A model generated the notes under the pieces. The model worked only from the letters and a program-made list of their open reading frames with translations, was not told the origin of the DNA and ran no database searches. Positions 9,869-37,448 of a stretch of 37,448 bases of DNA are shown here, in pieces. The DNA is from Anaerohalosphaeraceae bacterium (GTDB taxonomy: Bacteria; Planctomycetota; Phycisphaerae; Sedimentisphaerales; Anaerohalosphaeraceae). Both the position numbers and the translations under genes were made by a program. Location: positions 102,477 through 139,924 of the forward strand of contig JBBFLK010000006.1 in assembly GCA_037479115.1 (NCBI GenBank). The letters are read 5' to 3'. Positions within the stretch are counted from its first letter, which is position 1; every line of letters starts with the position of its first letter.

Positions 9869-10010
9869 GCCGACAAAGGTTTTATGACCGATATATCACT
9901 GAAGAGAGCCTTTGAATCAACCGATAGGAGAGATAGGATACCATAAAGCCAGATATTAAAGCAGTTGTGTGTCTGGACTGTCTTTTTTAATCTTACTTGT
10001 GAGTGGGAAA

Positions 10011-11579: not shown

Positions 11580-11597
11580 CCGAACGGAACGAACTTC

Positions 11598-13405: not shown

Positions 13406-13419
13406 ACGGATAAACGAAT

Positions 13420-18135: not shown

Positions 18136-18171
18136 ATTCTGTAATGACGTCCTTTTCAGTGGGAGCATGAT

Positions 18172-20454: not shown

Positions 20455-20472
20455 AGAAGGAGCATCTGCCTT

Positions 20473-21411
20473 ATGGAGCGTTTTTTAGTCACAGGCGGGG
20501 CGGGCTTTATCGGTTCTCATCTGTGCCGGCGTCTGGTTCACGAGGGGGCTTTTGTTCGGGTGCTGGACAATCTGAGCACCGGAAAAAAAAGCAATCTGGC
20601 CGACATCCTCAACTCCGTCGAGTTCGTTGAAGGCGATATGGGCGATGAAGCAGCCGCCCGCCGATGTATGCAGGGAATCGACATCGTCTTCCACCAGGGA
20701 GCTCTGCCTTCGGTCCCCCGGAGTGTGGAAAATCCGGCGGCCACGCATCGGGATTGCGTCGATGCCACCTTTACTCTTTTGACCGCCGCCCGCGATGCCA
20801 AAGTCAAACGCTTTATCTATGCCGCCAGCTCATCCGCCTATGGAGACAGCCCCACCCTGCCGAAAATTGAGTCCATGGCGCCGAATCCGCTGTCGCCGTA
20901 TGCCGCCGCCAAACTCTTCGGCGAGTACTACTGCAGCGTCTTTTCAAAAGTGTACGGATTGGAAACCGTCTCGCTGCGCTATTTCAATGTTTTCGGCCCC
21001 CGCCAGGACCCGAAAAGCCAATACGCCGCGGCCATCCCCGCTTTCATAACCAGTATTCTCAACGATCGCCCTCCCACCATTTACGGAGACGGAGAGCAAA
21101 GCCGCGACTTTACATATGTCGAAAATGTAGTCCAAGCCAATCTGCTGGCTGCCAAAGCCCCCAAAACCGCCGGCGAGGTTATCAATATTGCCTGCGGTCA
21201 GCGAATCACCCTCAACGAAGTCGTTCGGCTGATAAACAGGCACACAGGCAAAAATATCCATCCGACGTATGCTCCCCCGCGCCCGGGCGATGTACGGCAC
21301 TCCCTGGCGGACATTCGGAAAGCCCAAGAGCTGCTCGGCTATGAACCGATTGTTTCCTTTGAAGAAGGACTGCGCAGAACCATCGAATGGTATAAACAGA
21401 ACCCCGTATAA
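20473..21411 (+). CDS. NAD-dependent sugar-nucleotide epimerase, WbpP/GalE-like
   Basis: 312 aa extended short-chain dehydrogenase. NAD-binding GGAGFIGSHL at residues 8-17; Ser in AASSSAYGDSP (about 119-121) and Y143-x3-K147 form the catalytic set. HQGALPSVPRSVENP, SLRYFNVFGPRQDP and YGDGEQSRDFTYVENVVQANLLAA closely resemble WbpP-type UDP-N-acetylglucosamine 4-epimerases, so it probably supplies an epimerised UDP-sugar for the exopolysaccharide. UDP-glucose or UDP-glucuronate as substrate cannot be ruled out. The ribosome site AAGGAG lies 10 bases before the ATG. Last gene of the operon, 18 bases after the kinase gene. No clean terminator follows: the hairpin GAGTC-CGG-GACTC at 21435-21447 has no T-run on this strand. 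Confidence 0.93.
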   Translation: MERFLVTGGAGFIGSHLCRRLVHEGAFVRVLDNLSTGKKSNLADILNSVEFVEGDMGDEAAARRCMQGIDIVFHQGALPSVPRSVENPAATHRDCVDATFTLLTAARDAKVKRFIYAASSSAYGDSPTLPKIESMAPNPLSPYAAAKLFGEYYCSVFSKVYGLETVSLRYFNVFGPRQDPKSQYAAAIPAFITSILNDRPPTIYGDGEQSRDFTYVENVVQANLLAAKAPKTAGEVINIACGQRITLNEVVRLINRHTGKNIHPTYAPPRPGDVRHSLADIRKAQELLGYEPIVSFEEGLRRTIEWYKQNPV

Positions 21412-21649: not shown

Positions 21650-23548
21650 TCAGCGGCTTCCGCCGCCCGAAGATTGAACCGTATGAACAGAAACCGTCTG
21701 AACGTCCAAATCGCCGAAAAACTGAACTTCCGCGACATTCCCATACCCGTCGGCCGGTGACAAATATCGGACATACCGGAACCAATTCGGATTGGAAATT
21801 GATTGGGAAGTCAAAACCCCATCAGGCGGCTGTACCCGAATTGTAAACAAATCAACAACGTCGCCGCTGAAGTCCGGCGTATTGGCCCCCTGAAACCGTC
21901 CGTCCACCATTCGACTGCCGTAACCGGGTCGCGGACAGTACCTTATCTCCGTGATTCGAGCCCGGACCCCTTCCCCAAAATCCAGTCCGGCCCAGGCTGA
22001 ACGGCTCGGTGCATCAAAAAAGTTTCGCAGGCAGCCGTCAAAAACCGCATCCCGTACGGCTCCGGCATTTTGATAGGAACCCTCTGTCCCAATCACTGCT
22101 CCAAACAGCTGCTTGTTCGCCGCTGCGGCCGCCGGAGCACAGTCCTGCGTCTCCCCCTTCGGGGTTTGGGCGGACACTGTATAAAAATAGGTCATTCCCG
22201 GCGTCAAATCTTTGTCGATGTAATATGTCTCTTTCGTTGCTGCAATCGTCGTATAAGGCCCGCCGTGCGAGGTGCTGCGTTTGATAATATAACTTTGGGC
22301 AGACGCCGAACCCGTCCAGGACAAAACAATCCGTCGCCCCTGAACAGTCAGCCGCAGGGCGCTCGGTGCACGGGGGCCAATCGGTTCCCGCGTATGCGTA
22401 AGTGTCGTAAACCCAAGCTGGTCAAATCCGCCGCTGGTCGTCCCGTAATTGAACCCTCCTCCCTCCGGACGAACGTTCTCGGCATACTGCTGTGTATAGG
22501 GCGCTGACAGCCCTTTTCGGTTGACATAATGGTTATAAATCATCTCCCAGCCGGGCCGCATTTGACCGCGTGCCGTCGAAGAAATCATCGAATGAGCCGC
22601 CCGACTCGGATAATCGCAGGTTATATAAGTTACAAAAGGCACCTCATACCCCAGATTGTATTTGGCGACATATTCACAGCCTGCCAGCACCCGATTGCCG
22701 TCATAGCCGTAAAGGTCAATCCCCTGATTCCAGGCAATCTCGCAGATGGTTCCCATCAGCAGCACCCCCATCAGCGTATGTCCCTGGTCCCGCCCGCTTT
22801 CCTGCCACTGACCCAATCCGTCCGGATGGATAAAATGAACCGCATTTCGTACGGAACCGCTGCCGATCCCCTGATAAAAATAATTCAGCCCTTCCTCAAA
22901 AATATCGCGCCGGTCGCACAGCACGCCGATTGCCATCACGGAGGCAATATTTGCCAAATCCCAATTCGCCCAGTAATGGCTGCTGCACGTGCCGTGATGA
23001 GAGGCAAGAAAAGAAGCATTCTTCACATAAAAACCATCAAGCATCCACTTCTGAAAAGCCGCAAAATCCGCCGCACTCCAGCCGGAATAGTCCCGCATCA
23101 GTTCCGCCGTGCAGGCCAGCTGATACCCGTACAGACCCGCACGCAGACTGACGTTGGTATCTCCCTGCCAGCCGGTCATCCCAGAAGCCCAGGCGTTCAG
23201 AATCTCCACCGCTTTGTCTCCATACGCCGTTTCGCCGGATACCTGATAACGAAGGGCGCATTGATAAGCCCGGGCGCAGTCTCGGGCCAATCGGATGTAA
23301 TTCTCCGGATAGCCCCCGCCTGCATAGAGAATCGGCTGAGCCTCCGGTTTTGTATGAAGAAACGAATTCGTATTGCGGACAAGAAGTTCCCAGCTGCCCT
23401 TCCAAGGCTGCTCACCGGCCGCAACCTTTGCACGCATCCGCTCCAAATCCTCCTGTGTGGACAAAAGTCCCGGGTGAACAAACGCAGAAGGTCCCTGCAG
23501 CCCCAGCATTGTCCAAATGAAAACACTCAGTCCCAGACAATGCATCAT
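21650..23548 (-). CDS. alginate-lyase-family polysaccharide lyase with Fn3 and discoidin-like domains
   Basis: 632 aa. Signal peptide (1 to about 22, MMHCLGLSVFIWTMLGLQGPSA). Residues about 30-385 match the (alpha/alpha)-toroid alginate-lyase family (PF05426-like, probably near PL38). The central HHGTCSSHYWANWDLANI (H184, H185) and GLGQWQESGRDQGHTLMG are typical of this branch. A fibronectin-III-like domain follows (about 398-476), then a discoidin/F5-8C-like beta-sandwich (about 479-617). It should cleave a uronic-acid polymer outside the cell; alginate versus glucuronan cannot be decided. The start at 23548 is chosen because AAAGGAAT lies 6 bases upstream and a signal peptide follows. The frame stays open to 23701 only by running through the dockerin-coding end of the gene before it. 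It lies 38 bases downstream of that gene and, unlike its three operon partners, has no dockerin-like tail. Confidence 0.88.
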   Translation of the reverse strand: MMHCLGLSVFIWTMLGLQGPSAFVHPGLLSTQEDLERMRAKVAAGEQPWKGSWELLVRNTNSFLHTKPEAQPILYAGGGYPENYIRLARDCARAYQCALRYQVSGETAYGDKAVEILNAWASGMTGWQGDTNVSLRAGLYGYQLACTAELMRDYSGWSAADFAAFQKWMLDGFYVKNASFLASHHGTCSSHYWANWDLANIASVMAIGVLCDRRDIFEEGLNYFYQGIGSGSVRNAVHFIHPDGLGQWQESGRDQGHTLMGVLLMGTICEIAWNQGIDLYGYDGNRVLAGCEYVAKYNLGYEVPFVTYITCDYPSRAAHSMISSTARGQMRPGWEMIYNHYVNRKGLSAPYTQQYAENVRPEGGGFNYGTTSGGFDQLGFTTLTHTREPIGPRAPSALRLTVQGRRIVLSWTGSASAQSYIIKRSTSHGGPYTTIAATKETYYIDKDLTPGMTYFYTVSAQTPKGETQDCAPAAAAANKQLFGAVIGTEGSYQNAGAVRDAVFDGCLRNFFDAPSRSAWAGLDFGEGVRARITEIRYCPRPGYGSRMVDGRFQGANTPDFSGDVVDLFTIRVQPPDGVLTSQSISNPNWFRYVRYLSPADGYGNVAEVQFFGDLDVQTVSVHTVQSSGGGSR

Positions 23549-23586: not shown

Positions 23587-23770
23587 CTACTGGACAATCA
23601 GCCAGTTGTCCGCCAGGTCGGCCAAATCCTCCAGGCCCACCCAGCCGTCGCCGCCCGACGGAGCCGTATCCGCTGAAGGCTCGCCCGGTTCGCCCAGCCA
23701 CTGGCTGGACAAAATCGAAAAGTCCTCCAAATCCACCAGCCCGGACCGGTTCAGGTCCGCCGGATTGTAC
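23587..23770 (-). repeat. dockerin-coding repeat, copy 1
   Basis: This stretch and those at 27395-27580 and 30683-30866 are highly similar at the DNA level. They encode the RRYNPADLNRSGLVDLEDFS...DNWL tail of three adjacent genes. Copy 1 carries an Asp-to-Gly change in the second calcium-loop-like motif. Confidence 0.85.
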
Positions 23771-26700
23771 CGCCGGATAAACTCCACATTATTCACCAAA
23801 ACATGCGGACTGTTCAGAACAAACCGCAGGCCCCTGTCCGGCCCATTCGACAGAGAAATCCCTTCGATGACCGCATCCTGCCAGCTGCTCCAGCCGCCCG
23901 TCGAGGCCAGAGAAATATCCGCCAGAAGAGTTCCGGCAGTGCTGTCCAGAAGCTGCAGCGACGGAACAGCCTGATTGGTTGTATAGCGAATTCGCAGGGC
24001 ATAAAGACCCGGCTGAACAGAACAGGTGTATTCCAGCCACTCTCCGGACTCCATAAAAACGCCAAATCCGGCCCCGCCGTCCCAAATCGTCATAATGTCC
24101 ACATCGACATCCGTCCGATAGCCCCCGTAACTGTTGCCGGGAGTGGTATCAAAATACGAGACGCCCTGTCCGCCGATGTCAAAATCCTCCATTTCAATCC
24201 GACCGGGAAGCAAAAACGGACTGCCCCAATAGGGTACCTGCCGGGCAATCTCAATCCAGTTCATACGAAAACCGCTTCCGACAAATTCAAGTTTCAGAAC
24301 CGCTTGGTCCTTTTGCGGCAGCGGCAGACAGGAAGCCTTCACAGTCTGCCAGGCCGTCAGCGAACCCGTATTCGGCACCGCCACCGTCGCCAGCAGGTCC
24401 GCATCCAGCCACACCCGAATCTGCCCGCCGGACTGAATCGAGGCCGCCCGCGCATAGACAAACAAATTCCCGACGGACGGCTGCGTGCTGACGGTATAGG
24501 TGAGCCATTCGCCGCTTTCAATCGAATCCACCGCATAGCCGGCCGAACCGTCCGTCACCGCAACAATATCCACCGACTCGTACGTCCGATACGCTCCGCC
24601 CGAATTGCCGGCCGTCGTATCCCAATACGCATACCCAGGACCGCCGAAGTCAAAATCCTCCGCCTCTACACGCCCCGGCAACCCCCTCGCCATCCCGCCC
24701 CACGGCGACTGCTGCTTCTGGAATTCCACCCAGTTGACCTCCAGGCCTCCGGCTGGAAAAGACAGTTCCAAAACTCGTCCTGTGCCCCCTTCCAGCGTCA
24801 GACTATTCAGCATAAATGTCCCGAAGGTATCCAGCGAGCCCGTGCTGTTGACCCAAACCGTGCCCAGCACTGCATTGTCCAGCTTCACGGTCACCGGAAG
24901 ATTATTCCCCGTCGCCGACGCCCGCAGATACAGACAGTACACGCCGGACTCCGTCACATTCACCGTATAGCGAAGCCATTCCCCCGCCGCAATATTCGTC
25001 ACGGCAAACCCGCTGCCGAAGTCCGAAATACTCCGAATATCCACATCCGTCGGCAGCCGAAACACTCCGCCGCTGTTGCCGATTGTTGTGTCATAATAAG
25101 CGGTTCCCTGCGGGCCGTAATCATACTCTTCCGCCTCAATCCGCCCGGGAATGACCGCCGGCTGACCGCCGTACGGACCTTCCATCGTAATCATCTGATA
25201 CAAGTCCTGCACCGCCTCCGGCGTCAGGGCATAATTATAAATCCGAAAATCATCGATTCGCCCGTTAAAATACGGGTCGCCGGAAAACTGGCTTTTGCCG
25301 ATAGCGTTATTGACCGCATTAATTTCAGACGGGTCCAGACGTATCTGGCCGGCAACACGGGGCGTTCCGTTTACATAGAGAATGCCGGTATGGCCGCAAA
25401 GGGTCACCGCCACGTGAACCCATTGACCGATCGGAAGCGGGTCGGTTTCGAGAATCTGCTCATTGGCATTTCCCTCTTTGGTAATGGCAAACCGCAGGGT
25501 ATTGGCACCGGAACGCGGCGTCAGAAACAGATATTCGGATGTCCCGCCGCCGAAATCGAAAAGTCTCTGCCAATTTCCGCCGCTGTTCCAATACACCCAC
25601 GCCGCCGCCGTAAAATCAGTTGTATTCACAACCCCGGCGGGAAGCGACACAAAATCATCGACTCCATCCAGAACAATGGCCCGTCCGATGCGTCCGACGG
25701 TATAAGCCGGCGAACCCGAGGCGGTTCCATGGTAGGCAAACGTACTGTCCAACACACTGTCTTCAAACTCATAATAAGCCCGCAGGGTTCCATTCACCGG
25801 AGGATTGGCCGGCACAAACCGCCACTGCTGCGTATAGGAGCCGGTAAAATCCCACTGATAAATGGTTGCGGTGCCGCTGGCGGTCATGTATTTGCAGCTG
25901 TGGGCGTTGCGAATATAAAAATAACCGTCGCCGGCGTATTCCAGAAACCACCGCTGCAGGAAATTCTCCCCCATCCCCCATTGCCGGATGTTCGCACCGT
26001 TGCTGGTGGACCAGTTGGCCACTTCGGCGGTTCGGCCGCTGTGTGCGGCAAAGAGGAGAAAGTACCCGCTCATCTCCCGCAGAAGATTCCATTTCTGATG
26101 CAGTCCATCGGTATCAACCGCCTGGCGTATATCCGCTCCGTCCTGCATGCCGGCATTGGCCACCTCGGCCACGCGTCCGGTCTGGCGATTCACGATTTTC
26201 CATCGATTGCCGTCCAGAGCAGGCCACACCGGATTGTCCGTCTCGATTTCAATATACGCATCCTGCCCCTGATTGACATTGACCATATACGCTCGAATGG
26301 GGCCGATGCCGTTGTAATACACATCGCGATCGGTACAGACAAAACGATAAGGAGTCAGAGCCCCCTGCCGCTCAAAACACCCGGCAAAACCGTAGATTTT
26401 CCCATCCGGAGCCCGATAGACCGCCGCCGCAGAATATTTCCCGCGGTTTTCTGAATACCCCAGCCGCCGTCCGTCTGAAGCCCTCACAAAAACACCTCGA
26501 GGCAGCACCACCGGCCCCCACCAAATCCCGCCGCCCAGTCCGTACTCGGCCCCGTAGATGGCCTCCGCCAGACTGTGCAGTTCCGGATTATGCGGGATGG
26601 CTCCGTTGGCCTTGACATACTGAAGGAAATTGACATAGCTGTTTGTCGAGCCGGCCAGCTGATGGGTGGACCCCAGATGAACCCGGCTTTTGATGACATC

Positions 26701-27324
26701 ATACCAGGTCCGGGCCGTATCGCTGTTCAGAACACTCGGGCCGCCCAGCAGCGTACCCTGAAAGCGCGGGCTGTTTTGGAGAAGCCCCAGAATGTCATAC
26801 AAATTCTGCGGCGTTCCCTGATTCCATGGTGAATAATCCGGCTCGTTAAACGGTTCGACCGCCGCAATCGGCCTGTTGATATAGGCCTGGGTCGCCTCAA
26901 TCAGCTGAGCCCAGCGGTCCGGCCAGACCTGCGAGCCGTTTTTATACCACGAATGCACGCCGTCCCCGGTAGCCGGTGTGAGCATCAGCGGTTTGCTGCC
27001 CGCCATGGCGGCAATGCTCAACTGATTATTAATCTTTGCTTTGGAGGAATCCGCAATCTCTCCATTGGCCGTCAGCGGTTCATCCATATAGAAATTCAGC
27101 CGGATGATATCAATGGCATCCAGCCCCATATGAGCGATGCTGATTCGCATATTGTCCCGGCTGGGCCAGGCCGTATCCACCCCCCACTCTGGAACAGATT
27201 TGACCTGACCGGCGTCCGCGGTGCTGAACGAAACCGTTTCCGCCAAAACAAAACCGCTCCATCCCAACCAGAGCGCTGCATACAGCCCCAGTCTAACTGC
27301 TCTGGAAAACTTGTTCGATTTCAT
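23587..27324 (-). CDS. GH30/39-like glycoside hydrolase with ricin lectin, LamG, three CBM6 and dockerin-like domain
   Basis: 1245 aa. Signal peptide 1-28 (cleavage after FVLA). Residues about 40-360 look like a retaining-type TIM-barrel glycosidase: EPFNEPDYSPW contains the probable acid/base E161, and candidate nucleophiles are E254 or E260 in LAEAIYGAEYG. The exact GH family is uncertain. Then come a ricin-type beta-trefoil with QxW repeats (about 371-504), a LamG/concanavalin-like domain (512-710), three CBM6-like modules (719-869, 873-1025, 1029-1182; each starts near GRIEAEDFD), and a dockerin-like pair of EF-hand loops (1185-1245). The first loop, DLNRSGLVDLED, is intact. The second has Gly (GWVGLED) where the two sister proteins have Asp. 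ATG at 27324 has GAGGAGGG 8 bases upstream; the TTG at 27342 overlaps that site and was rejected. Confidence 0.82.
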   Translation of the reverse strand: MKSNKFSRAVRLGLYAALWLGWSGFVLAETVSFSTADAGQVKSVPEWGVDTAWPSRDNMRISIAHMGLDAIDIIRLNFYMDEPLTANGEIADSSKAKINNQLSIAAMAGSKPLMLTPATGDGVHSWYKNGSQVWPDRWAQLIEATQAYINRPIAAVEPFNEPDYSPWNQGTPQNLYDILGLLQNSPRFQGTLLGGPSVLNSDTARTWYDVIKSRVHLGSTHQLAGSTNSYVNFLQYVKANGAIPHNPELHSLAEAIYGAEYGLGGGIWWGPVVLPRGVFVRASDGRRLGYSENRGKYSAAAVYRAPDGKIYGFAGCFERQGALTPYRFVCTDRDVYYNGIGPIRAYMVNVNQGQDAYIEIETDNPVWPALDGNRWKIVNRQTGRVAEVANAGMQDGADIRQAVDTDGLHQKWNLLREMSGYFLLFAAHSGRTAEVANWSTSNGANIRQWGMGENFLQRWFLEYAGDGYFYIRNAHSCKYMTASGTATIYQWDFTGSYTQQWRFVPANPPVNGTLRAYYEFEDSVLDSTFAYHGTASGSPAYTVGRIGRAIVLDGVDDFVSLPAGVVNTTDFTAAAWVYWNSGGNWQRLFDFGGGTSEYLFLTPRSGANTLRFAITKEGNANEQILETDPLPIGQWVHVAVTLCGHTGILYVNGTPRVAGQIRLDPSEINAVNNAIGKSQFSGDPYFNGRIDDFRIYNYALTPEAVQDLYQMITMEGPYGGQPAVIPGRIEAEEYDYGPQGTAYYDTTIGNSGGVFRLPTDVDIRSISDFGSGFAVTNIAAGEWLRYTVNVTESGVYCLYLRASATGNNLPVTVKLDNAVLGTVWVNSTGSLDTFGTFMLNSLTLEGGTGRVLELSFPAGGLEVNWVEFQKQQSPWGGMARGLPGRVEAEDFDFGGPGYAYWDTTAGNSGGAYRTYESVDIVAVTDGSAGYAVDSIESGEWLTYTVSTQPSVGNLFVYARAASIQSGGQIRVWLDADLLATVAVPNTGSLTAWQTVKASCLPLPQKDQAVLKLEFVGSGFRMNWIEIARQVPYWGSPFLLPGRIEMEDFDIGGQGVSYFDTTPGNSYGGYRTDVDVDIMTIWDGGAGFGVFMESGEWLEYTCSVQPGLYALRIRYTTNQAVPSLQLLDSTAGTLLADISLASTGGWSSWQDAVIEGISLSNGPDRGLRFVLNSPHVLVNNVEFIRRYNPADLNRSGLVDLEDFSILSSQWLGEPGEPSADTAPSGGDGWVGLEDLADLADNWLIVQ
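24548..24636 (-). repeat. 89-bp perfect repeat within CBM6-B, copy 1
   Basis: Identical to 31638-31726. It encodes the start of the second CBM6 module (around NSGGAYRTYESVDIVAVTDG). Confidence 0.88.
24908..25048 (-). repeat. 141-bp perfect repeat within CBM6-A, copy 1
   Basis: By direct comparison this is identical, base by base, to 31998-32138. It encodes the core of the first CBM6 module (around SDFGSGFAVTNIAAGEWL). Confidence 0.9.
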
Positions 27325-27394
27325 TCCGTTGACCCTCCTCAAAACGCACAGTGAACATCTGCCCGTTATTCCCCGTATTCCGCAGAAAGCGGCA

Positions 27395-27580
27395 TCAATA
27401 TTCCTTCAGCCAGTTGTCCGCCAACTCGGCCAAATCCTCCAAATCCACCCAGCCGTCGCCGCCCGACGGAGCCGTATCCGCTGAAGGATCGCCCGGTTCG
27501 CCCAGCCACTGGCCCGACAAAATCGAAAAGTCCTCCAAATCCACCAGCCCGGAGCGGTTCAGGTCCGCCGGATTGTACCG
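27395..27580 (-). repeat. dockerin-coding repeat, copy 2
   Basis: Copy of the dockerin-like coding sequence, at the end of the C25 peptidase gene. Confidence 0.85.
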
Positions 27581-30500
27581 CCGGATAAACTCCACATAAT
27601 TGATCGAAACCCGGGGACTGGCCAAAACGAAGCGAAGCACCTTCTCCGGCCCGCCCGGCAGATAAATCCCTTCAATCAGGGCATCCTGCCAGGTACTCCA
27701 GCCGCCGGTGGGCGCCAATGCAAAATCCGCCAGAACTGCGCCCGTCCCCCCGTCCTCCAGACGCATTGAATCCACCCGATAGTTTGTCGTATAACGAACC
27801 CGCAGGTCATACAGTCCCGACGGAATCGAACAGGTATATTCCAGCCATTCGCCGGACTCCATAAACACACTATACCCCATGGTTCCGCCGTCCCAAATCG
27901 TCATAATGTCCACATCCACATCCGTCCGGTACACACCGTAGCTGTTGCCGGATGTATTGTCATAGAAGGAAATCCCCTGTCCTCCGATGTCAAAATCTTC
28001 AAATTCAATCCGACCGGGAAGGGAAAACGGACTTCCGAGATACGGCAGCTGTTTGGTCAAGGCAACCCAGTTCAGCCGGAATCCGCCGCCTAAAAATTCG
28101 AGTTTCAGCAGGGCATTTGTTCGCCCGGGCAGAGGAATCCCGCCTGCCTTAATACTTTGCCAGGTGTTCAGGGAACCGGTATTCGGAACGGCAACGACAG
28201 CCAGCAGAAGCTCATCCAGCCAAACTCGAACCACCCCTCCGTCCTGCGCCGAAGCCGCCCGCAGATACAAATCCGCCGTTTCCGCCGAGGTGTTCACCCG
28301 ATACGTCAGCCATTCGCCGGCTTCAATGGCATCTACAGCATAATCCGCCGTCCCGTCTGTGATGGAAACAATATCCACATCCTCCCGTGTTCGTAGGACG
28401 CCGCCGGAATTGCCTGTTGTGGTATCCAAATATGTAATTCCCTGCCCGCCGACATCAAAATGCTCCGCCTGAATTCGGCCGGGCAGCGTTCGAGCCTGTC
28501 CCCCGTACGGATAAGGCGAAAGAACCGCCGTCATCGGTTCAGAATACGCCGTCTCATTGAGATTATCGCTCAAATCCCGGGCCTTCACCCGGTAGGTACT
28601 GACTGTCTGTACAACCCCCGTATCGGTATAAATCGGACTGCTCTGCCAGCCGCTGTCTTTTCCTCCGCCCGCAACACACTGGAAGTAATACTGAACATTC
28701 GAACCTCCGGCGTCTACCGCCGTCGTCGCTTCCATCGTCACAGAGCCCGGGCCGCTCTCATAAGGAGGCGTTGCCCACGTCATCGGATTCGGGGTCGGAG
28801 GGGCAAAATCCGGATCGACCAGCACAAAGACCGACGGGTCCCCGTAGAGAGTCATCCGGGTCGCATTCGGCGGATAAATATAATCCTGCTGCTTGGCATT
28901 GGCCAGCGCCAGCCCGCAGGTCTGGCGGTTGACCACCATATTCCTCGTATAACGGTACGCCAGCGTCCCGATGCTTCCGCCGCCGGCAAAGTTGGTCTGT
29001 CCCACATCGTAAAAGCTCTCCCGTGTCGCCGCCACCGTCGTAATGGCTCCCCGCTGCAGAATCTTATAGGCCAGATTGGAATTGTTCTCCGGATAAGCAT
29101 TCAGACAGGACCCCTGATACACGGCGCTCGGATACGAATCATTCAGACGCCAAATATTGTTATTGTCGATCACCTCACTGGCCACATTCCAGTTCCCGTG
29201 CGTCAGCCATGTTACAAATCCATACGGCTGACTGCCCCATTCCGTCGCCGGATAACGATTTGAAAGCAGATACTCCGGAGCGGGATTCAGCCCGTAATTG
29301 TCCCGATAAATCCGCGTCGAGGCAATCCCGTTCGGGATGTAAAAGGCGCTGCGTATCTGTTCTCCGCACTGGTAGGCCGGCGTCGTATCATCCAGCGGCA
29401 CCATCGGCAAAAGTCCCTTGCGCCGCCACAAGACCTGCTGAGAGTTTTCATAGTTCATGGTCTTCTGCAGAATTGCATCCAGTTCCGACATCGTACCATA
29501 GTTCGGAATCCTCCCGACCACAACCTCCCAATACTTATCCCAACCGCTTGCCGTGCTCAAATCGGAATACATCGCATCAATCGGAGCACTGCCGCGGCCG
29601 TCATCGTACCAGCGCATCGGCACGGTTCCGGTATCCGGATGCGGGTCTCCGATCAGCAGCACATACAGAATATCCATTGTCTGATAGTTCGCCCGAAGCC
29701 AGTTGCGGATATTCACCGCCGCCGCAGACCCCGTCCCGCCGCCCCAGGTGCTCTCCGTTACCACGCTCACATTCCAACCGCGTGATGCCTTATGCGCAAC
29801 AAAAGCAGCCAATTTTGTCGAGCTGTTTACAATCGACGAGGTGGTCAAAATCACATACCCCTTTGAATTCACTCCCGCTGTGCCGATAAGCCCCTCCCCG
29901 GATTCCGTCGAAAGGGTTCCGACAGCAGAAGAAGTCCCCGCTTCCGCATCATACTCCGCCGCCGCGGAAGCAAAATTGACCGCCAGTTCCCGAACTCGTT
30001 CTCGACCTCGCCGAGTGTTGATTGTTCGGCCTGCCGCTTCCAGCCGTTTGCGCCGCTCCGCCTTTCGGTCCCAATCGGTCCAGACATTCGCCTCCGTCAG
30101 CTCCTGCACTTCTCCGGTTACGGGATTGTACCGAACAAGCGGGACGGCGATTTCGACTAACTTCCAATCCTCCAGCTGCCCCTTGTGAACCAGCCGATAC
30201 GTTTCCTGCGGCCAGAAAGCATTGCGGGTATAGATTTCCGTATCGTATCCATCCACAATAATCCGCCCTTCGGGCCAGACAAAAACCGGATTGCCCTCGG
30301 CGTCCCAGGTTCCCCAAGGTCCGCGCGGGGCAATCTTTCGATTTCCTTCAAGCAATGTGTATTTCCCATCCGCCCATACGGCAATCTGCTCCAAATCGAC
30401 AAACGGCGGCAGAACAACCCGCAGCACCTGCCAGGGAATATCCGGCTCGCCCGGCTGACTGGTAAAGGCGGCCTCTTCCGCCCACACCCGAACCTGATTT

Positions 30501-30643
30501 TGCTCGGTCTGATGAAACCGCAGCGGACGGGTTTCCACCTGCCCCCCCGCACGACTGCCCGTAAACACACGAACAGTTCCCGCCGACAGCAGAGAAGATG
30601 CCGACGCCAGAAAAACAAACCCAACTCTCAGATAATGTCTCAT
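27395..30643 (-). CDS. gingipain-like C25 cysteine peptidase with two CBM6 and dockerin-like domain
   Basis: 1082 aa. Signal peptide about 1-21 (ending LLSAG). A propeptide-like region rich in Arg and Glu (about 22-230) is followed by a caspase-fold peptidase of family C25 (about 255-605). The catalytic dyad is visible: H482 in WLTHGN and C513 in GSCLNAYPE. Spacing of 31 residues matches gingipain R (33). An Ig/Fn-like domain (about 620-708) and two CBM6-like modules (712-865, 869-1020) follow, then the dockerin-like tail (1022-1082, DLNRSGLVDLEDF and GWVDLEDL). Presumably secreted and attached to a polysaccharide or complex by the tail. A peptidase with carbohydrate-binding modules inside a polysaccharide-degradation operon is unusual. 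Substrate specificity is not predictable. Ribosome site GGGGAA lies 6-9 bases before the ATG. Confidence 0.87.
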   Translation of the reverse strand: MRHYLRVGFVFLASASSLLSAGTVRVFTGSRAGGQVETRPLRFHQTEQNQVRVWAEEAAFTSQPGEPDIPWQVLRVVLPPFVDLEQIAVWADGKYTLLEGNRKIAPRGPWGTWDAEGNPVFVWPEGRIIVDGYDTEIYTRNAFWPQETYRLVHKGQLEDWKLVEIAVPLVRYNPVTGEVQELTEANVWTDWDRKAERRKRLEAAGRTINTRRGRERVRELAVNFASAAAEYDAEAGTSSAVGTLSTESGEGLIGTAGVNSKGYVILTTSSIVNSSTKLAAFVAHKASRGWNVSVVTESTWGGGTGSAAAVNIRNWLRANYQTMDILYVLLIGDPHPDTGTVPMRWYDDGRGSAPIDAMYSDLSTASGWDKYWEVVVGRIPNYGTMSELDAILQKTMNYENSQQVLWRRKGLLPMVPLDDTTPAYQCGEQIRSAFYIPNGIASTRIYRDNYGLNPAPEYLLSNRYPATEWGSQPYGFVTWLTHGNWNVASEVIDNNNIWRLNDSYPSAVYQGSCLNAYPENNSNLAYKILQRGAITTVAATRESFYDVGQTNFAGGGSIGTLAYRYTRNMVVNRQTCGLALANAKQQDYIYPPNATRMTLYGDPSVFVLVDPDFAPPTPNPMTWATPPYESGPGSVTMEATTAVDAGGSNVQYYFQCVAGGGKDSGWQSSPIYTDTGVVQTVSTYRVKARDLSDNLNETAYSEPMTAVLSPYPYGGQARTLPGRIQAEHFDVGGQGITYLDTTTGNSGGVLRTREDVDIVSITDGTADYAVDAIEAGEWLTYRVNTSAETADLYLRAASAQDGGVVRVWLDELLLAVVAVPNTGSLNTWQSIKAGGIPLPGRTNALLKLEFLGGGFRLNWVALTKQLPYLGSPFSLPGRIEFEDFDIGGQGISFYDNTSGNSYGVYRTDVDVDIMTIWDGGTMGYSVFMESGEWLEYTCSIPSGLYDLRVRYTTNYRVDSMRLEDGGTGAVLADFALAPTGGWSTWQDALIEGIYLPGGPEKVLRFVLASPRVSINYVEFIRRYNPADLNRSGLVDLEDFSILSGQWLGEPGDPSADTAPSGGDGWVDLEDLAELADNWLKEY

Positions 30644-30682
30644 CCGAATTCCCCTGCCTCTCTTTTTGTCTTTTCTCTTCTC

Positions 30683-30866
30683 TTACTGCCAAATCAGCCA
30701 GTTGTCGGCCAGGTCGGCCAAATCCTCCAAATCCACCCAGCCGTCGCCGCCCGCCGGAGCCGTATCCGCCGACGGGTCGCCCGGCTCACCCAGCCACTGG
30801 CTGGACAAAATCGAAAAGTCCTCCAAATCCACCAGCCCGGACCGGTTCAAGTCCGCCGGATTATAC
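30683..30866 (-). repeat. dockerin-coding repeat, copy 3
   Basis: Copy of the dockerin-like coding sequence, at the end of the GH128-like gene. Confidence 0.85.
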
Positions 30867-33800
30867 CGCCGGATAAACTCCACATAATTCACCAAAACAC
30901 GCGGACTGCCCAGAACAAACCGAAGGATGCTCTGCGGCCCGCCCGGCAGATAGATCCCTTCAATCACCGCATCCTGCCAGCTGCTCCAGCCGCCGGTGGA
31001 TGCAAGCACCAGATTCGCCAAAACCGTCCCCGTTGTCCCGTCAGCCAGCTGCAGGGAATCCACCGGATAATTCGTCGTGTACCGAACCCGAAGGTCATAC
31101 AGCCCGGCCGGCATGGAACAGGTGTACTCCAGCCATTCGCCGGACTCCATATACACCCCGAATCCGGCTCCGCCGTCCCAAATCGTCATAATGTCCACAT
31201 CCACATCCGTCCGATAGGCACCATAACTGTTGCCCGGCGTATTGTCGAAATAAGACACATAATTTCCGCCGACATCAAAGTTTTCAAACTCCAGAATCCC
31301 CGGCAGAGAAACAGGAACCCCCAGATAAGGCATGCGGTTCTGGAAATCAATCCAGTTGACCCGATACCCGCTTCCGATAAATTCCAGTTTCAGAATTGCA
31401 TTGGTCTTTTGCGGCAGTACTACGCCCGGCACAATCACATTCCGCCAGGCATCCAGCGAACCCGTATTCGGCACCGTCACAGTCGCCAGCAGGTCTGCAT
31501 CCAGCCACACCCGTATCTGTCCGCCGTCCTGAATCGAGGCCAGCCGCACATACAAATCCCGCACGGCCGCACTGGTGCTGACGGTATAGGTGAGCCACTC
31601 GCCGCTCTCAATCGAATCCACCGCATAGCCGGCTGTCCCGTCCGTCACCGCAACAATATCCACCGACTCGTACGTCCGATACGCTCCGCCCGAATTGCCG
31701 GCCGTCGTATCCCAATACGCATACCCGGGACCGCCGAAGTCAAAATCCTCCGCCTCCACACGCCCCGGCAGAACCCACGCCGTCCCGCCCCACGGCGACT
31801 GCTGCTTCTGAAATTCCACCCAGTTGACCTCCAGACCCGGAGAAGAAAACGACAGTTCCAGCACACGCCAGGCCCCAGCTTCCAGCGTCAAATTATTCAG
31901 CAGAAAGGTCCCAAACGTATCCAGTGAGCCTGTACTGTTCACCAGAACCGTTCCGACAACCGCATTGTCCAGCTTCACGGTCACCGGAATATTGTTTCCC
32001 GTCGCCGACGCCCGCAGATACAGACAGTACACGCCGGACTCCGTCACATTCACCGTATAGCGAAGCCATTCCCCCGCCGCAATATTCGTCACGGCAAACC
32101 CGCTGCCGAAGTCCGAAATACTCCGAATATCCACATCCCCGTCATTTCGGAAGGCCCCGCCGCTGTTGCCGACCGTTGTATCATAATAAGCAGCCCCCGA
32201 TTGTCCGAGGTCATACTGCTCCGCTTCAATCCGTCCGGGGATTACGGCCGGCTGACTGGTGTACGGGCGGCTGCCGCCGGAGGCATACAGCGCCGCCGCT
32301 TCGCTGGTCGTCACCGCATAATCATAAATCCGCACATCATCCAGCAACCCCTGATAATAGGCATCCGCCGTCCAGTTGCTTCGTCCGATATAATTCGCCG
32401 TCCGTGTCGCACTCAGCGGAATGCTCGTCGTCGCCGTCAGAATCAGCTGGCCGTTCTTATAAATCTTCACATTGCTGGACGAACGCTTGCTGATGCTCAC
32501 CACGAAATGCTGCCAGGCATTCAGGGCCAAAGCATTCGTTGCACGGACAACCGTTCCCCCTGAAGAACCGTTAAAAACCTGTACAAACAGGTCATTGGTA
32601 GTCCCGTATCGGCCTACGATGATATTGTTGGCGTTCGGTCCGCTGCCCAAATCCACAAAGCGGGCATAATTTTTCACCGCCGTCGGATACGCCCAGAACG
32701 AAACGGAAAACCCGTTGTCAAATTCATAAAAACCGCTCGGCAGCTGGATGTAGTCGTCCGTCCCGTCAAACTGCAGGGCCCGGCCCAAAACACCCGGAGC
32801 GCTGTTTGATGCAAAATTCAGCCCTCCCATCAAAGTTCCGTTCCGACCCTTTCCGGACAGGTCGCCGGCCGTTGTCCCCGTCTGTTCATCCAGCCGATAA
32901 TACCCGATGCATTCAAAATTAACATCCAGGGAATTGGCCATCGGCGGCAGGTGGTCGCGGTACACCACACCCGCCGGTGTCAGAGCTCCGTCAACAATCA
33001 GCTCCCGATTGGTGCACCACTGATAAATCGAATACCGTTCGACATACGGCAGACTGGCCATCCGAGTAATCAGCTCATTAATTTTGGCGGCATTCTGCTC
33101 ATAGGTCGGGTGCGGCGTTGTCCAGTTGCACCCGTTATTGAACTCCGTAATCCACAGCGGCCGTCCCGTCCGCTGATGAATCCCGCGCAGCCAGTTTTCC
33201 AGCTGGTCCGCCGTCCAGTTGTTCTTGTAATAATGGACCGCCACGAAATCCACCCGCAGCCCCAGCGCATCCGCCTGGTCAATAAAACTGTACAGCCAGT
33301 CCAGCCCGCTGGAGGCATCGCTGGGAGCCGGTGAACCCAGACGGAGCCCGGAAGCCACCAGATTCGGCCAGGCATCGATTACCTGCTGAACCGTCATATT
33401 TGCCTGGTCCGACTTGTCCGGCTCATTGAACGCCAGCACATGCGTGGAATTCTGCTTGTTATTGATATTCGAATAACTGTTCCAGTTGGCATTGTGCCGC
33501 ATCGGCACATATTCAATATCCAGTGTCGAGGTCGCCGCATTATCCCAGTCATACCGCCAGGTGCAGTTGACCATCGCCGCATCCGATGCACTGCCGCACC
33601 AGCCCTTCTTGGAAGGCCAGCGCCACGGAATCACCCGGACAAAGGAAACGTCATTCTCCAAATCCGCCGGCATCACCCCAATCCAAAGGTCCGCATCTTT
33701 GGCAACATACACCCGACTGGGACCTGTTCCGTTGTCATTGGCCGCAAAGGTCGCCATATACCCCCGCTTCAGCCGAAACGAACGGATATTGTTGTTCATC

Positions 33801-35035
33801 GCCCCCAGCTGCGTCGAACGGTAATATGTATAATTGCCCAGATTCACGGAACTGCCGGTAAAGTTCACATTGCTGAATACCTGCAGGGCCTGATAACTGC
33901 TCGAATGGGGAATCACCACCGTGCCCGCCTCATACTGGACAATCCGGATGTTTGTATTCAAAACAGCGGCGGCTCCGTTCACACGAATTTGATTCAGATA
34001 GGTGGATGTATTGACGGCAGAGGGTTTCAGCGAGCGGAAAAACAGCCAGGCATCTGCAGAATTCAGATGCACGACGCTGTTGGTCAAGGGAGTCGTACCG
34101 GTCAGATGCAGCTCGGATGTGCCCGTCATATACACCGTTGCATTGCTCAGACTGCCGTAGGTCTGAATGCTGTTGTCAATATAAAGCGTTGTTGAACTCG
34201 GAATCACCGTCAGTTTTCCGGTGGACTGGTCGAACTGATACAAAACCCCGTTGGCCTCCTTTTCCCAGACCCCGCCGCCCTTGTTTGTAAAACCAACCAC
34301 CGTAAATGTGGCCCCAAAGGTCCGGTTGGATGCACTGACAATTGTCCAGCTGTCCCCGACACTGGTTCCCGCCCCATTCAAATCAAAGATAAAATCTCCA
34401 TTGAGAACGGTCTGCGGCCCCGTTCCGGAGATGCTGTTGTTCACTCCGTTGGCGCCAATCACAAACCGCAGGACTGCATCATCCGCCAGCACAAACCGTC
34501 CGTTGTTGACGATACTCCCTGTAAACGTATTGGCCGACGAATAAAACGTCAGCGTCCGTCCGTCCCCGTCCGAGCCCGTGTTCGTAATCCTGGCACTGCC
34601 GCTGATAGTCGCATACACGTTAATCGGCCCTTGTTTGGCATACATCATTGAGTCGGCGGCAATATGAATATTCCCGTACAAATTGCAGACATCCGCCGCC
34701 CCATTCCGATGGTCAATAATTGTTCCCCCGTTGCCGATGAGATTATTCACTGTGATGCTGCCGGTTGAACCGGTGCCCTTGTACATCAGAACCCCGCCGG
34801 TATTGATGGTCAGCGAATCGCCGCCGAAAACATAATTGCCCCCATCCGGCGGTGTCCGCAGCTGAGCAATGCTCACCACATAATCATTGCCTGCGCTCGG
34901 CGGCTGCCCGTTGCTCCAGTTGAGCCCGCTGTTAAAAGACGATTGCCCCAGCGCATCGGCAGCCACCAGCGTGATGGTGGCAGAATAAGCCGGTACAGAC
35001 GTGAAAAGAACGGCTAAAAAAAGCATCTTTTTCAT
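30683..35035 (-). CDS. GH128-like glycanase with beta-rich N-terminal region, LamG, three CBM6 and dockerin-like domain
   Basis: 1450 aa. Signal peptide 1-18 (AYS cleavage). Residues about 20-450 are repetitive beta-rich sequence resembling autotransporter-type beta-helix or pseudo-helix modules. About 460-700 is a TIM barrel of the GH128 (Glyco_hydro_cc, PF11790-like) type: LAFNEPD with E538 and PLWITEFNNG with E631, and QWCTNRE near the end, as in beta-1,3-glucanases of this family. Then a LamG domain (705-915), three CBM6-like modules (928-1078, 1082-1233, 1237-1388) and the dockerin-like tail (1391-1450). Likely secreted, attacking beta-1,3-glucan such as laminarin. First gene of the operon: ribosome site GAGGGAG, ATG at 35035, promoter near 35300. 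The next gene begins 39 bases after its end. Confidence 0.85.
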   Translation of the reverse strand: MKKMLFLAVLFTSVPAYSATITLVAADALGQSSFNSGLNWSNGQPPSAGNDYVVSIAQLRTPPDGGNYVFGGDSLTINTGGVLMYKGTGSTGSITVNNLIGNGGTIIDHRNGAADVCNLYGNIHIAADSMMYAKQGPINVYATISGSARITNTGSDGDGRTLTFYSSANTFTGSIVNNGRFVLADDAVLRFVIGANGVNNSISGTGPQTVLNGDFIFDLNGAGTSVGDSWTIVSASNRTFGATFTVVGFTNKGGGVWEKEANGVLYQFDQSTGKLTVIPSSTTLYIDNSIQTYGSLSNATVYMTGTSELHLTGTTPLTNSVVHLNSADAWLFFRSLKPSAVNTSTYLNQIRVNGAAAVLNTNIRIVQYEAGTVVIPHSSSYQALQVFSNVNFTGSSVNLGNYTYYRSTQLGAMNNNIRSFRLKRGYMATFAANDNGTGPSRVYVAKDADLWIGVMPADLENDVSFVRVIPWRWPSKKGWCGSASDAAMVNCTWRYDWDNAATSTLDIEYVPMRHNANWNSYSNINNKQNSTHVLAFNEPDKSDQANMTVQQVIDAWPNLVASGLRLGSPAPSDASSGLDWLYSFIDQADALGLRVDFVAVHYYKNNWTADQLENWLRGIHQRTGRPLWITEFNNGCNWTTPHPTYEQNAAKINELITRMASLPYVERYSIYQWCTNRELIVDGALTPAGVVYRDHLPPMANSLDVNFECIGYYRLDEQTGTTAGDLSGKGRNGTLMGGLNFASNSAPGVLGRALQFDGTDDYIQLPSGFYEFDNGFSVSFWAYPTAVKNYARFVDLGSGPNANNIIVGRYGTTNDLFVQVFNGSSGGTVVRATNALALNAWQHFVVSISKRSSSNVKIYKNGQLILTATTSIPLSATRTANYIGRSNWTADAYYQGLLDDVRIYDYAVTTSEAAALYASGGSRPYTSQPAVIPGRIEAEQYDLGQSGAAYYDTTVGNSGGAFRNDGDVDIRSISDFGSGFAVTNIAAGEWLRYTVNVTESGVYCLYLRASATGNNIPVTVKLDNAVVGTVLVNSTGSLDTFGTFLLNNLTLEAGAWRVLELSFSSPGLEVNWVEFQKQQSPWGGTAWVLPGRVEAEDFDFGGPGYAYWDTTAGNSGGAYRTYESVDIVAVTDGTAGYAVDSIESGEWLTYTVSTSAAVRDLYVRLASIQDGGQIRVWLDADLLATVTVPNTGSLDAWRNVIVPGVVLPQKTNAILKLEFIGSGYRVNWIDFQNRMPYLGVPVSLPGILEFENFDVGGNYVSYFDNTPGNSYGAYRTDVDVDIMTIWDGGAGFGVYMESGEWLEYTCSMPAGLYDLRVRYTTNYPVDSLQLADGTTGTVLANLVLASTGGWSSWQDAVIEGIYLPGGPQSILRFVLGSPRVLVNYVEFIRRYNPADLNRSGLVDLEDFSILSSQWLGEPGDPSADTAPAGGDGWVDLEDLADLADNWLIWQ
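31638..31726 (-). repeat. 89-bp perfect repeat within CBM6-B, copy 2
   Basis: Identical to 24548-24636. Near-identity continues past both ends with a few substitutions. Confidence 0.88.
31998..32138 (-). repeat. 141-bp perfect repeat within CBM6-A, copy 2
   Basis: Identical to 24908-25048. The two copies are about 7.1 kb apart in the same operon. Confidence 0.9.
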
Positions 35036-35387: not shown

Positions 35388-37448
35388 TTATTGGCAATCC
35401 GGATACAGACCGCAGGCCAGCCAGTTCTGGATAAACACGGCAAGGTCCGCTAAATCCACCCGGCAATACGAATCAATCGTATTGACAAAATTGTACGCAT
35501 TGCCTGTAAAGGAGGGCGTCAGACACGGTTTCAGACCTGTCTTGTCCACATACTCCTGCGCAATCACTGTTCCTGAAACAGCGTAATTGTACACCCGGAG
35601 ATTGTCGATGGCCCCGCCAAAGAAGCTCGTCAAAACAGTGCGGTCTGCAGCCGTCCGGCTGGCGCCAATCAGCATCCCCCGCTGCCACGGCAGATATTGG
35701 TCCGGCTTGCCGCCGGTCACAGAAGCCACCTGCTCGCCGTCCACGTAAATCCGGACAAACTCCCCTTCTTTCCAAGTAGCCCCAACCAAATGCCACCGGC
35801 CGTCATACAGATTAAATCCCGTCATCCCCGGGCGGCCTTCCGCCGTACCGATTTCCTGATATTCCTGCTGGAAACCTTCCCCGCGAATGTTCAGCCGGGC
35901 ATTCGGAGCGGTGTTCAGCGAGAACCCAAATCCCGTCGTCGCCCCATCGTTGTAGTTCAAAAGCACCGTACCGGCCTGTGTGGGCTTCACCCAGCACAGA
36001 ACCGTGCCTTCCGACATTCCGTTGGCAAACCCGGCCTTCGGATAGGCTTCGGCCCCAAGGTCAATATATTGACCCTGTCCGTCCAGAACTGCATACATCC
36101 CGTCAATCGGGGCGGTACTGCCGAACGTCGGACCGCCGGAACCCGGATTCGTGTAATTCAGGCCGACTCCGTGATTATTCCCGACGGAATCATTGAAGCT
36201 GCCTTCAAAGTCATACCGAGCCAGCAGCCGATTGACAATCAGAGGGGCCTGCTGACTTGTCGTGCTTCCCGTCAGATTCGTCAGAACGCAATAGTAATAT
36301 CCCTGATCGCTGACCCCTGGATTGTTAATGGACAGCGTCGTCGTTGTATCATCCCAGGCAATCGAATACTTGCTGCCGGGCGTGAGCACGGTATCATTGA
36401 GCCCATCAACATACTTCTTCCAGGTCGGCTGGGCCGCAGAGAGCTCGCTGCGGAACTTTACTGTAAATACCGCCGGAGGAGGCGTCGGATTCGAGCCGTC
36501 CACACGAACCTCACTCGGCTGTTCTTCAATATACGGAACCGCCGGAATGGTCTTAAAAGTCCAGACTCCGCCCCGAATCGTCCTGGAATCAGTCGGCAAC
36601 GAATTGTCTATGCTTTCATCCACGCGCCAATAGTAAGTCCGGTCTGCTTCCAGCCCGGCCGGCGGCGTATAAGAGCCGACCGCCCCGGTCGCCGGAATCG
36701 TAATCGGCGTCATTCCGACAAAATTGGGGTCCGTATGACGCAGATACAAATAGTGCTTGGTAATTCTCGGATTGACCTGTGAAGGATTATTCGGGTCAAC
36801 GCCCGTATTCCAGCTGAGCACAGTATCCAGCAGAACGTTCGTTGCTCCGTTTGCCGGAGAAGGATTGTAAGCCGCACCGGACACATACACGGACAGATTT
36901 TCACCGGGACTGGTCACAATGTTGTCAAAATACAGCCGCGTACCCGCCGTGATGTTGGAACCATAGTTAGCGATGGTATAAAACCGGTCCAAATCCCCAT
37001 CCGTTCCGCTGGTGCGGAACGCAAAATCCGTCGCCACGCGGTCCGCCGCCGTGGCCGCAGACGGTGTGGTTTTGATATAAACGGAGTAGGTGTTGTTGAT
37101 GTTGTTCACAACAATCCAGAGATAATACCAGGTATTGGCCTGGAAGGTCCCTACTGTCTGAGAGGAACCGCCGTTTCGCACCAGCAGGTTCCCCCGCACC
37201 AGAGCGACCTGACAGTTAAAGTTGGCAAATCCGCCGCTGGTCGGCGAATCAATCGATGTGAGGCCGAACGACTGATCCAGCGCCGTCGTCGTCACATAAA
37301 ACTGGCAGAACAGAGTCCCGATTGTGCCGTCCTTTATGGCATCCGCCGCCGGAATCACCCCGTACATTCCATACTGACCGGTATTGTTCGTTTCTACTAC
37401 CGTTTCCATTAAATAAGTTTTAGTTTTGTTGAGTTTGTTTATTGCGAT
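35388..37448 (-). CDS. secreted LamG/Ig-like surface protein, N-terminus beyond window
   Basis: The frame remains open to the right edge (13 codons before the ATG at 37409, no stop), so the gene is very likely 5' truncated. At least 687 codons including the stop are present. Counting from Met at 37409: a concanavalin-like domain about 1-175, an Fn3-like region (about 178-285, NPSPANGATNVLLDTVLSW...YYWRVDES), an Ig-like domain (about 295-390, ending in GYYYCVLTN), and a LamG domain (about 395-610, ARYDFEGSFNDSVGNNHGV...GAIDNLRVYNYAVS). A half-dockerin-like end, YCRVDLADLAVFIQNWLACG, follows. This tail differs from the three genes below it. No catalytic residues are recognised, so it is probably a glycan-binding or adhesive surface protein. 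It has its own terminator. Confidence 0.82.
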   Translation of the reverse strand: MAINKLNKTKTYLMETVVETNNTGQYGMYGVIPAADAIKDGTIGTLFCQFYVTTTALDQSFGLTSIDSPTSGGFANFNCQVALVRGNLLVRNGGSSQTVGTFQANTWYYLWIVVNNINNTYSVYIKTTPSAATAADRVATDFAFRTSGTDGDLDRFYTIANYGSNITAGTRLYFDNIVTSPGENLSVYVSGAAYNPSPANGATNVLLDTVLSWNTGVDPNNPSQVNPRITKHYLYLRHTDPNFVGMTPITIPATGAVGSYTPPAGLEADRTYYWRVDESIDNSLPTDSRTIRGGVWTFKTIPAVPYIEEQPSEVRVDGSNPTPPPAVFTVKFRSELSAAQPTWKKYVDGLNDTVLTPGSKYSIAWDDTTTTLSINNPGVSDQGYYYCVLTNLTGSTTSQQAPLIVNRLLARYDFEGSFNDSVGNNHGVGLNYTNPGSGGPTFGSTAPIDGMYAVLDGQGQYIDLGAEAYPKAGFANGMSEGTVLCWVKPTQAGTVLLNYNDGATTGFGFSLNTAPNARLNIRGEGFQQEYQEIGTAEGRPGMTGFNLYDGRWHLVGATWKEGEFVRIYVDGEQVASVTGGKPDQYLPWQRGMLIGASRTAADRTVLTSFFGGAIDNLRVYNYAVSGTVIAQEYVDKTGLKPCLTPSFTGNAYNFVNTIDSYCRVDLADLAVFIQNWLACGLYPDCQ

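Follow-up and report, generated by a model that had tools for sequence, protein, structure and literature searches.

A CBM6-type and dockerin-like tail shared by unrelated planctomycete enzymes: a putative docking or targeting tag

Introduction

Three adjacent genes of an uncultured Anaerohalosphaeraceae bacterium encode proteins with unrelated catalytic domains that share one type of C-terminal tail, formed from CBM6-type modules and a dockerin-like module. The locus raises the question of what such a tail does, and whether it has behaved as a unit that can be placed behind one enzyme or another. An original prediction, made from the window alone, compared it to a plug-in that might bring glycanases and a peptidase to one place.

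Organization of the locus

The window analysed here is the whole stretch of 37,448 nucleotides (G000:C6:102477-139924), which reaches the end of its contig; the assembly to which it belongs (G000) comprises 3.02 Mb in 52 contigs and is 99.85% complete. In order of transcription on the minus strand, the cluster consists of a LamG-Ig gene cut by the contig end, the GH128 enzyme P0003, the C25 peptidase P0002, the GH39-like P0001 and the alginate-lyase-family P0004 (Table 1). The gaps between the last four genes are about 40–50 nt (with the P0004 start set at 23548), and P0003, P0002, P0001 and P0004 therefore look like a single operon.

NCBIfam gave no confident name for any of the five cluster proteins. 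The LTHG and QGSC motifs of P0002 are presumably those that are catalytic in C25 peptidases. The catalytic part of P0001, originally taken as GH30/39-like, gave no match in Pfam or in a single-sequence search; a weak profile match to a solved GH39 β-xylosidase (E 0.0028) makes the description GH39-like a tentative one. The true start of P0001 is probably the ATG six codons after the listed TTG.

Table 1. Genes and domains of the cluster, in positions of the window
Feature	Position	Strand	Assigned by
LamG-Ig protein gene, cut by contig end; terminal half dockerin-like repeat	35388..37448	-	
P0003, GH128-type glycoside hydrolase (PF11790): N-terminal region without Pfam family, LamG, tail A-B-C-D	30683..35035	-	
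P0003 Glyco_hydro_cc (GH128) catalytic core; motifs FNEPD and ITEFN present	32960..33571	-	Pfam
P0003 Laminin_G_3 domain	32300..32767	-	Pfam
P0003 module A (CBM6/35-type)	31790..32263	-	Pfam and module identities
P0003 module B	31325..31789	-	Pfam and module identities
P0003 module C; CBM6 aromatic platform kept	30866..31324	-	Pfam, module identities and platform count
P0003 module D (dockerin-like)	30686..30865	-	Module identities
P0002, C25 (gingipain-family) peptidase: propeptide-like region, tail B-C-D	27395..30643	-	
P0002 Peptidase_C25 domain; motifs LTHG and QGSC present	28829..29857	-	Pfam
P0002 module B	28040..28504	-	Pfam and module identities
P0002 module C	27578..28039	-	Pfam, module identities and platform count
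P0002 module D	27398..27577	-	Module identities
P0001, putative clan GH-A (GH39-like) enzyme: ricin-B lectin, LamG, tail A-B-C-D	23587..27342	-	
P0001 catalytic region, without Pfam match, weak GH39 profile match	26245..27243	-	
P0001 module A	24700..25173	-	Pfam and module identities
P0001 module B	24229..24699	-	Pfam and module identities
P0001 module C	23770..24228	-	Pfam, module identities and platform count
P0001 module D	23590..23769	-	Module identities
P0004, alginate-lyase-family protein (PF05426) with fn3, tail-less in the window	21650..23548	-	

Architecture of the tail

In P0003 and P0001 the tail follows a LamG domain and has the order A-B-C-D, and in P0002 it has the order B-C-D. 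Pfam finds CBM_6/CBM_35_2 in three stretches of P0001, two of P0002 and three of P0003, with scores for CBM6 (PF03422) of 133.9, 79 and 110 bits against a cut-off of 28.9 and about equal scores for CBM_35_2 (PF18099). These matches, combined with the module comparison, confirm the order first read for the glycanases and for the C25 peptidase. Modules of the same letter in the window proteins share 85% protein identity for A, 62–78% for B, 71–76% for C and 88–93% for D, and A, B and C compared with one another share 35–48%. The original observation that modules of one letter are closer across proteins than A, B and C are within a protein is borne out by these values (62–93% versus 35–48%). The eight window modules also group by letter in a tree, and the same holds, against a grouping by protein, for 47 modules from 10 genomes, with support of 97/95 for A (drawn as an open group that includes one very long row), 100/97 for B and 100/100 for C. 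On these trees A, B and C are old, separate module families. The signature first described for module C does not extend to P0003, whose module C reads VYMESGEWLEYTC and not FMESGEWLEYTC.

A search of the genome with profile A1 gave eight places (E 5e-77 to 3e-71), which are the eight A, B and C modules of P0001, P0002 and P0003; the other matches were just three, all partial, on contigs C10 and C12 (E 5e-8 to 4e-6). A chance likeness is thereby excluded.

The CBM6-type modules

Among solved structures the modules are most closely related to the CBM6 of CtXyl5A, matched by profile with an E of 2.9e-30 over about 140 residues. A fold search with a model of C-D likewise gave CBM6 entries as its best matches, CtXyl5A at the top. 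Module C forms a β-sandwich in this model (residues 51–150, pLDDT about 60–89); the overall pLDDT is 60 from 8 sequences, and the D part is unreliable.

The aromatic platform of the cleft is taken here to consist of the sites of Tyr33 and Trp92 of CmCBM6, which presumably hold the sugar. At these two sites module C has an aromatic residue in 18/19 and 17/17 sequences, module A in 0/8 and 0/6 and module B in 0/19 and 0/19, and the Asn site of the platform is occupied by Asn in 6/6 sequences of A, 15/19 of B and 9/16 of C; the platform count omits A2 of G031, whose row is long. Since only C keeps both CBM6 aromatic sites, C is the likely glycan binder of the tail. The weaker retention of Asn in C (9/16) counts against this assignment. 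The three modules are probably not three alike binding modules.

Distribution and exchange of the tail

Among the matches listed in a scan of genome contigs, the closest relatives are planctomycete MAGs. A B-C-D profile at E ≤ 1e-50, run against the 161 genomes of the order, matched 11 of them, the own genome included, at 24 places that hold the whole tail or much of it; within the genus, five of six genomes have it and G002 gave no match. The carriers are GH128 (8), C25 (7), CotH (3), alginate-lyase-family (1) and P0001-type (1) proteins, with 4 unclassified. The genome search called for originally has two sides: other species and genomes carry GH128 and C25 tails, with GH128 tails reaching other families of the order, whereas A, B and C of the own genome occur only in the three neighbouring genes.

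The catalytic part of P0001 is found in 4 of 98 genomes searched. Its genus relative, in G005, shares 61% identity with it through the end of the LamG domain and then continues into a different dockerin-like end; A, B and C were not found there at E ≤ 0.01, and by eye the stretch after LamG resembles a putative Ig domain. Five P0001-type matches in G031 and G035 are also without A, B or C in the same frame. Conversely, a relative of P0004 in G040, 60.5% identical over 446 aa, bears LamG-C-D. The tails on relatives of P0001 and P0004 differ from those in the window, and tails have therefore been gained, lost or replaced. As judged from the sequences, the tail shows plug-in behaviour, in that homologous enzymes of different genomes can differ in it. 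The idea of a unit set behind varied catalytic domains is upheld by its presence on GH128, C25, CotH, alginate-lyase-family and P0001 enzymes, and by the differing tails of the P0001 and P0004 relatives.

The tail of P0001 is of the GH128 type, and patches of 100% nucleotide identity to P0003 occur within A and B in 20-codon windows. A recent copy of the P0003 tail was considered as its origin and not retained. Module A of P0001 branches outside the group of P0003 module A, G003 and G004 in the 47-module tree, and its module B lies outside the other GH128-type B modules in the AU-test tree, with weak support. The P0001 branch in module A precedes the split of P0003, G003 and G004, and the P0001 tail is therefore not simply a fresh local copy. 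Local copying is possible for P0001 alone; it is rejected for the GH128 and C25 genes.

Different histories of module B and modules C-D

A comparison of the GH128 and C25 tails within single genomes separates module B from the modules that follow it. Nucleotide identity between the two genes is 69.9% in B, 96.5% in C and 97.8% in D of G001, 65.8% in B and 96.4% in C of G003, and 63.6% in B and 91.2% in C of G004; the values for the own genome, G000, are 68.5, 77.8 and 90.4% for B, C and D. In G001 a C-D stretch of 180 codons, or nine consecutive 20-codon windows, shows 100% identity at every codon position, for which an assembly error is possible, and is flanked by windows at 73% and 89%.

The trees give the same division. 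AU tests reject a grouping of C modules by enzyme (p 8e-9 and 2e-100) and a grouping of B modules by genome (p 2e-5, 1e-3 and 2e-51), the enzyme groups having been defined by gene identity after the first tree was known. The GH128 type forms a starred clade (99/99) in the B tree, and a C25 clade is neither recovered nor rejected by the AU test (p 0.32). The D tree (30 rows) is little resolved, with 4 starred branches.

Modules C-D have thus been homogenized between the neighbouring GH128 and C25 genes within G001, G003 and G004, and B has not. The pattern is taken to reflect gene conversion at the 3' end of the tail, because paralogues within a genome exceed orthologues in identity, the borders are sharp and third positions are included. 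In the own genome the homogenization is weaker, partial and patchy: its C modules share 75–78% with each other and 73–75% with their counterparts on the matching G003 and G004 enzymes, and the three group at 96/91 in the 47-module tree and at only 86/91 in the smaller AU-test tree. That B tracks the enzyme and C-D the genome is new relative to the original prediction.

Module D

The final module had been called both dockerin and dockerin-like. It is not matched by Pfam Dockerin_1 (PF00404) at E ≤ 1 in P0001, P0002 or P0003, and is tied to this family only via other members in the own genome that do match Pfam. Its first loop, DLNRSGLVDLED, fits D1-N3-S5-D9-D12, which we take to be the calcium-loop pattern of dockerin repeats, and the second loop is longer, with first positions that do not fit; this comparison was made by eye, with a poor model of D. 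Against solved structures the best dockerin has an E of 0.023 and is followed by unrelated proteins. By these comparisons D is best called dockerin-like, not a dockerin proper.

Modules like D occur at 35 places in the own genome (E ≤ 0.01), and dockerin-like modules without cohesins are thus common in this planctomycete. In the 20 proteins scanned they lie beside rhamnogalacturonan lyase, GH43, GH30-like, GH16, GH76, GH95, pectate lyase and other domains. A count at E ≤ 0.05, made in limited stretches and with half repeats included, places the match within 30 aa of the C-terminus in 28 of 41 ORFs and farther away in 13. Some own-genome proteins have the module near the N-terminus (L193 1-1338, minus strand; L196 2581-3900, plus strand), a position at odds with a sorting signal confined to the C-terminus.

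A possible role for the tail

The explanation preferred here, at slightly better than even confidence, is that the tail serves secreted degradative enzymes as an address cassette, C-terminal and movable, whose module D would dock to a partner other than cohesin. The cassette consists of three CBM6-type modules, A, B and C, and of D, a dockerin-like and putatively duplicated calcium-loop module. Recombination within the cluster would spread it and keep C-D alike. Module C would bind glycan, with A and B acting as spacers or binding otherwise, and D would fold around calcium and dock to its partner, perhaps the LamG-Ig protein encoded upstream. Such docking would let a glycanase and a peptidase act on a single glycan-protein target, and from the enzymes carried a mixed glycan/protein-degrading system, as originally suggested, is plausible. 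We infer that the shared tail, which moves among enzymes, works like a docking or targeting tag.

The LamG-Ig protein is perhaps the partner of D and is the sole candidate that can be named. Of 10 GH128 or second-C25 clusters for which over 1 kb upstream could be inspected, 8 have its gene immediately before the first tail gene (G000, G001 twice, G003, G004, G005, G031 and G035); it was not found near the GH128 gene of G044 or G079. The proteins encoded in relatives (L160, L164, L166, L155, L158, L161 and L162) are 77–90% identical within the genus and 27–35% for the more distant ones. A bolder version of the preferred reading would be a cohesin-free docking system in which gene conversion keeps C-D identical within a species because it has to match a partner that diverges fast and is specific to that species, possibly the LamG-Ig protein from the same operon. 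This version is speculative and its probability is low; if true, glycanases and a gingipain-family peptidase would belong to one surface machine, in which enzymes are exchanged via their tails.

Alternative explanations

The most serious rival, a real possibility that nevertheless ranks clearly below the address cassette, is that the tail is a substrate-binding array and nothing else. Module C would grip glycan, A and B would space it, D would be a calcium-stabilized end cap that docks to nothing, and the homogenization of C-D would be a by-product of adjacent similar sequences. The failure to find a cohesin in the six genus genomes agrees with this, as do the 13 dockerin-like matches more than 30 aa from the C-terminus, which fit a general structural module. 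Similarly, a simple identity threshold for recombination would leave B, at 64–70%, unconverted while C-D is converted. Against it, D is among the best kept parts of the tail in the window proteins (88–93% versus 62–85% for A, B and C), and the C-terminal position of the other 28 matches suits a tag.

The same 28 matches would fit a tag for sorting or anchoring by an export or surface machinery, comparable to PEP-CTERM, and an exosortase and exopolysaccharide (EPS) locus lies next door (9969-21411). This reading is improbable and is not favoured, given the 13 matches that are not C-terminal, some of them near the N-terminus. By eye, moreover, the tail ends in ...LADNWL and has no PEP motif, membrane segment or basic end, and the stretches searched around the tail genes of relatives, a few kb each, contained no homologue of the EPS proteins.

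A little less probable again is that the tail belongs to a cellulosome- or planctosome-like complex, with a cohesin that has diverged beyond the reach of the profiles or falls in an assembly gap. Cohesins do occur in the order (9 of 161 genomes by Pfam). In the same order, 13 dockerin proteins are reported from Limihaloglobus, along with a protein of the form Coh2-Doc1-Coh1 (PMC11557425), and a peptidase-bearing 'planctosome' has been proposed for freshwater planctomycetes (PMC6461901). Nevertheless, Pfam gave no cohesin in the own genome and none in any of the six genomes of the genus, five of which are listed as at least 98% complete, and an order-specific profile at E ≤ 0.05 also gave 0/6. 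In a control that profile found cohesins in 8/8 genomes, including all four that had given it no row, though Pfam already saw those four. No scaffoldin with several cohesins was found in the own genome or in the 6/6 genus genomes. The original remark that neither cohesin nor scaffoldin is in sight thus holds across the genome, and recruitment of the enzymes to a cohesin-based complex, one reading of the tail, is not supported by these searches.

The last alternative, a recent local tandem duplication of the three genes that would leave the sharing without further meaning, had been raised with the original prediction and is scarcely credible, since the confinement of A, B and C in this genome to three adjacent genes and the 300-nt repeats at 85–90% stand against GH128 and C25 tails present in further species, those of GH128 even outside the family, trees that group by letter, B modules that sort by enzyme with the genome grouping rejected, and LamG domains beside the tails that are unlike each other (37–67% in 20-codon windows).

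Comparison with known systems

CtXyl5A of Clostridium thermocellum, with the presumed domain order GH5-CBM6-CBM13-Fn3-CBM62-dockerin, is a multimodular enzyme of a cellulosome. It contains the solved CBM6 closest to the tail modules (PDB 2y8k, 5la0-5la2 and 5g56). Its dockerin binds a cohesin scaffold; in the genus studied here no cohesin was found, and one tail is common to unrelated enzymes. Cellulosomes similarly unite extracellular enzymes of different families that bear a related C-terminal duplicated calcium-loop module. The present system differs in that scaffoldin and cohesin were not found in 6/6 genus genomes, in its C25 peptidase and CotH carriers and in the three CBM6-type modules that precede D, and is not classed as a cellulosome.

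Cohesin–dockerin sets of planctomycetes have been published (PMC6461901, PMC11557425). The hypothetical planctosome (Andrei et al., 2019; PMC6461901) includes planctomycete dockerin proteins, among them peptidases and LTD-bearing proteins, according to the portion of the paper available. As described there it rests on cohesins, borne by anchor and adaptor proteins, of which none were found in the genus studied here, and a tail shared by glycanase and peptidase and the tail modules themselves are not part of it. Limihaloglobus sulfuriphilus, of the same order by the paper's own reference, has dockerin modules fused to unusual domains and a two-cohesin protein in the text available (PMC11557425), whereas the searches made gave none in the genus of the window. 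In the accessible text of two genome surveys dockerins are not mentioned (PMC11131199 and, by term search, PMC11266412). A limited literature search found no paper that joins concerted evolution with dockerins, which is not proof of novelty.

The system offers several handles in sequence, namely tail differences on related enzymes, complete versus incomplete glycan sites and a homogenization that stops at the B/C border. C-D would be the minimal unit for binding, and LamG-Ig is a specific candidate for its partner. Should one be identified, dockerin-like modules would provide a second way, besides cohesins, of gathering enzymes, a peptidase included.

Further observations on the locus and its relatives

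The EPS locus is encoded on the plus strand and converges on the enzyme cluster. It contains an exosortase above the family cut-off, an EpsE-like export protein, a PrsT-like TPR protein, a tyrosine autokinase and an epimerase. As a conserved neighbour of the tail genes it was rejected, given the lack of homologues in the stretches searched around those of relatives.

In three genomes the tail, or its B module, is attached to CotH-kinase-like proteins (L157 3142-8664, L250 541-6105 and L251 5045-9625), and two of the three tail-bearing CotH proteins, those of G005 and G044, combine LTD with CotH. Several contigs of relatives end within tail modules (G003:C5, G004:C15, G004:C40, G044:C22 and G005:C12), and the tail of the G005 CotH gene is among those cut; such breaks would be expected where short-read assembly fails at nearly identical copies of the tail. 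In G005 each of the two C25 copies is split into two overlapping frames (L157 1-3161 and L158 1993-5305), which may reflect broken genes or faulty sequence. Finally, relatives also encode the N-terminal region of P0003 (aa 1-284) as a gene of its own that lies upstream of GH128, with 57–79% identity (L166 3894-4829, L160 6664-7929 and L256 8203-9246).
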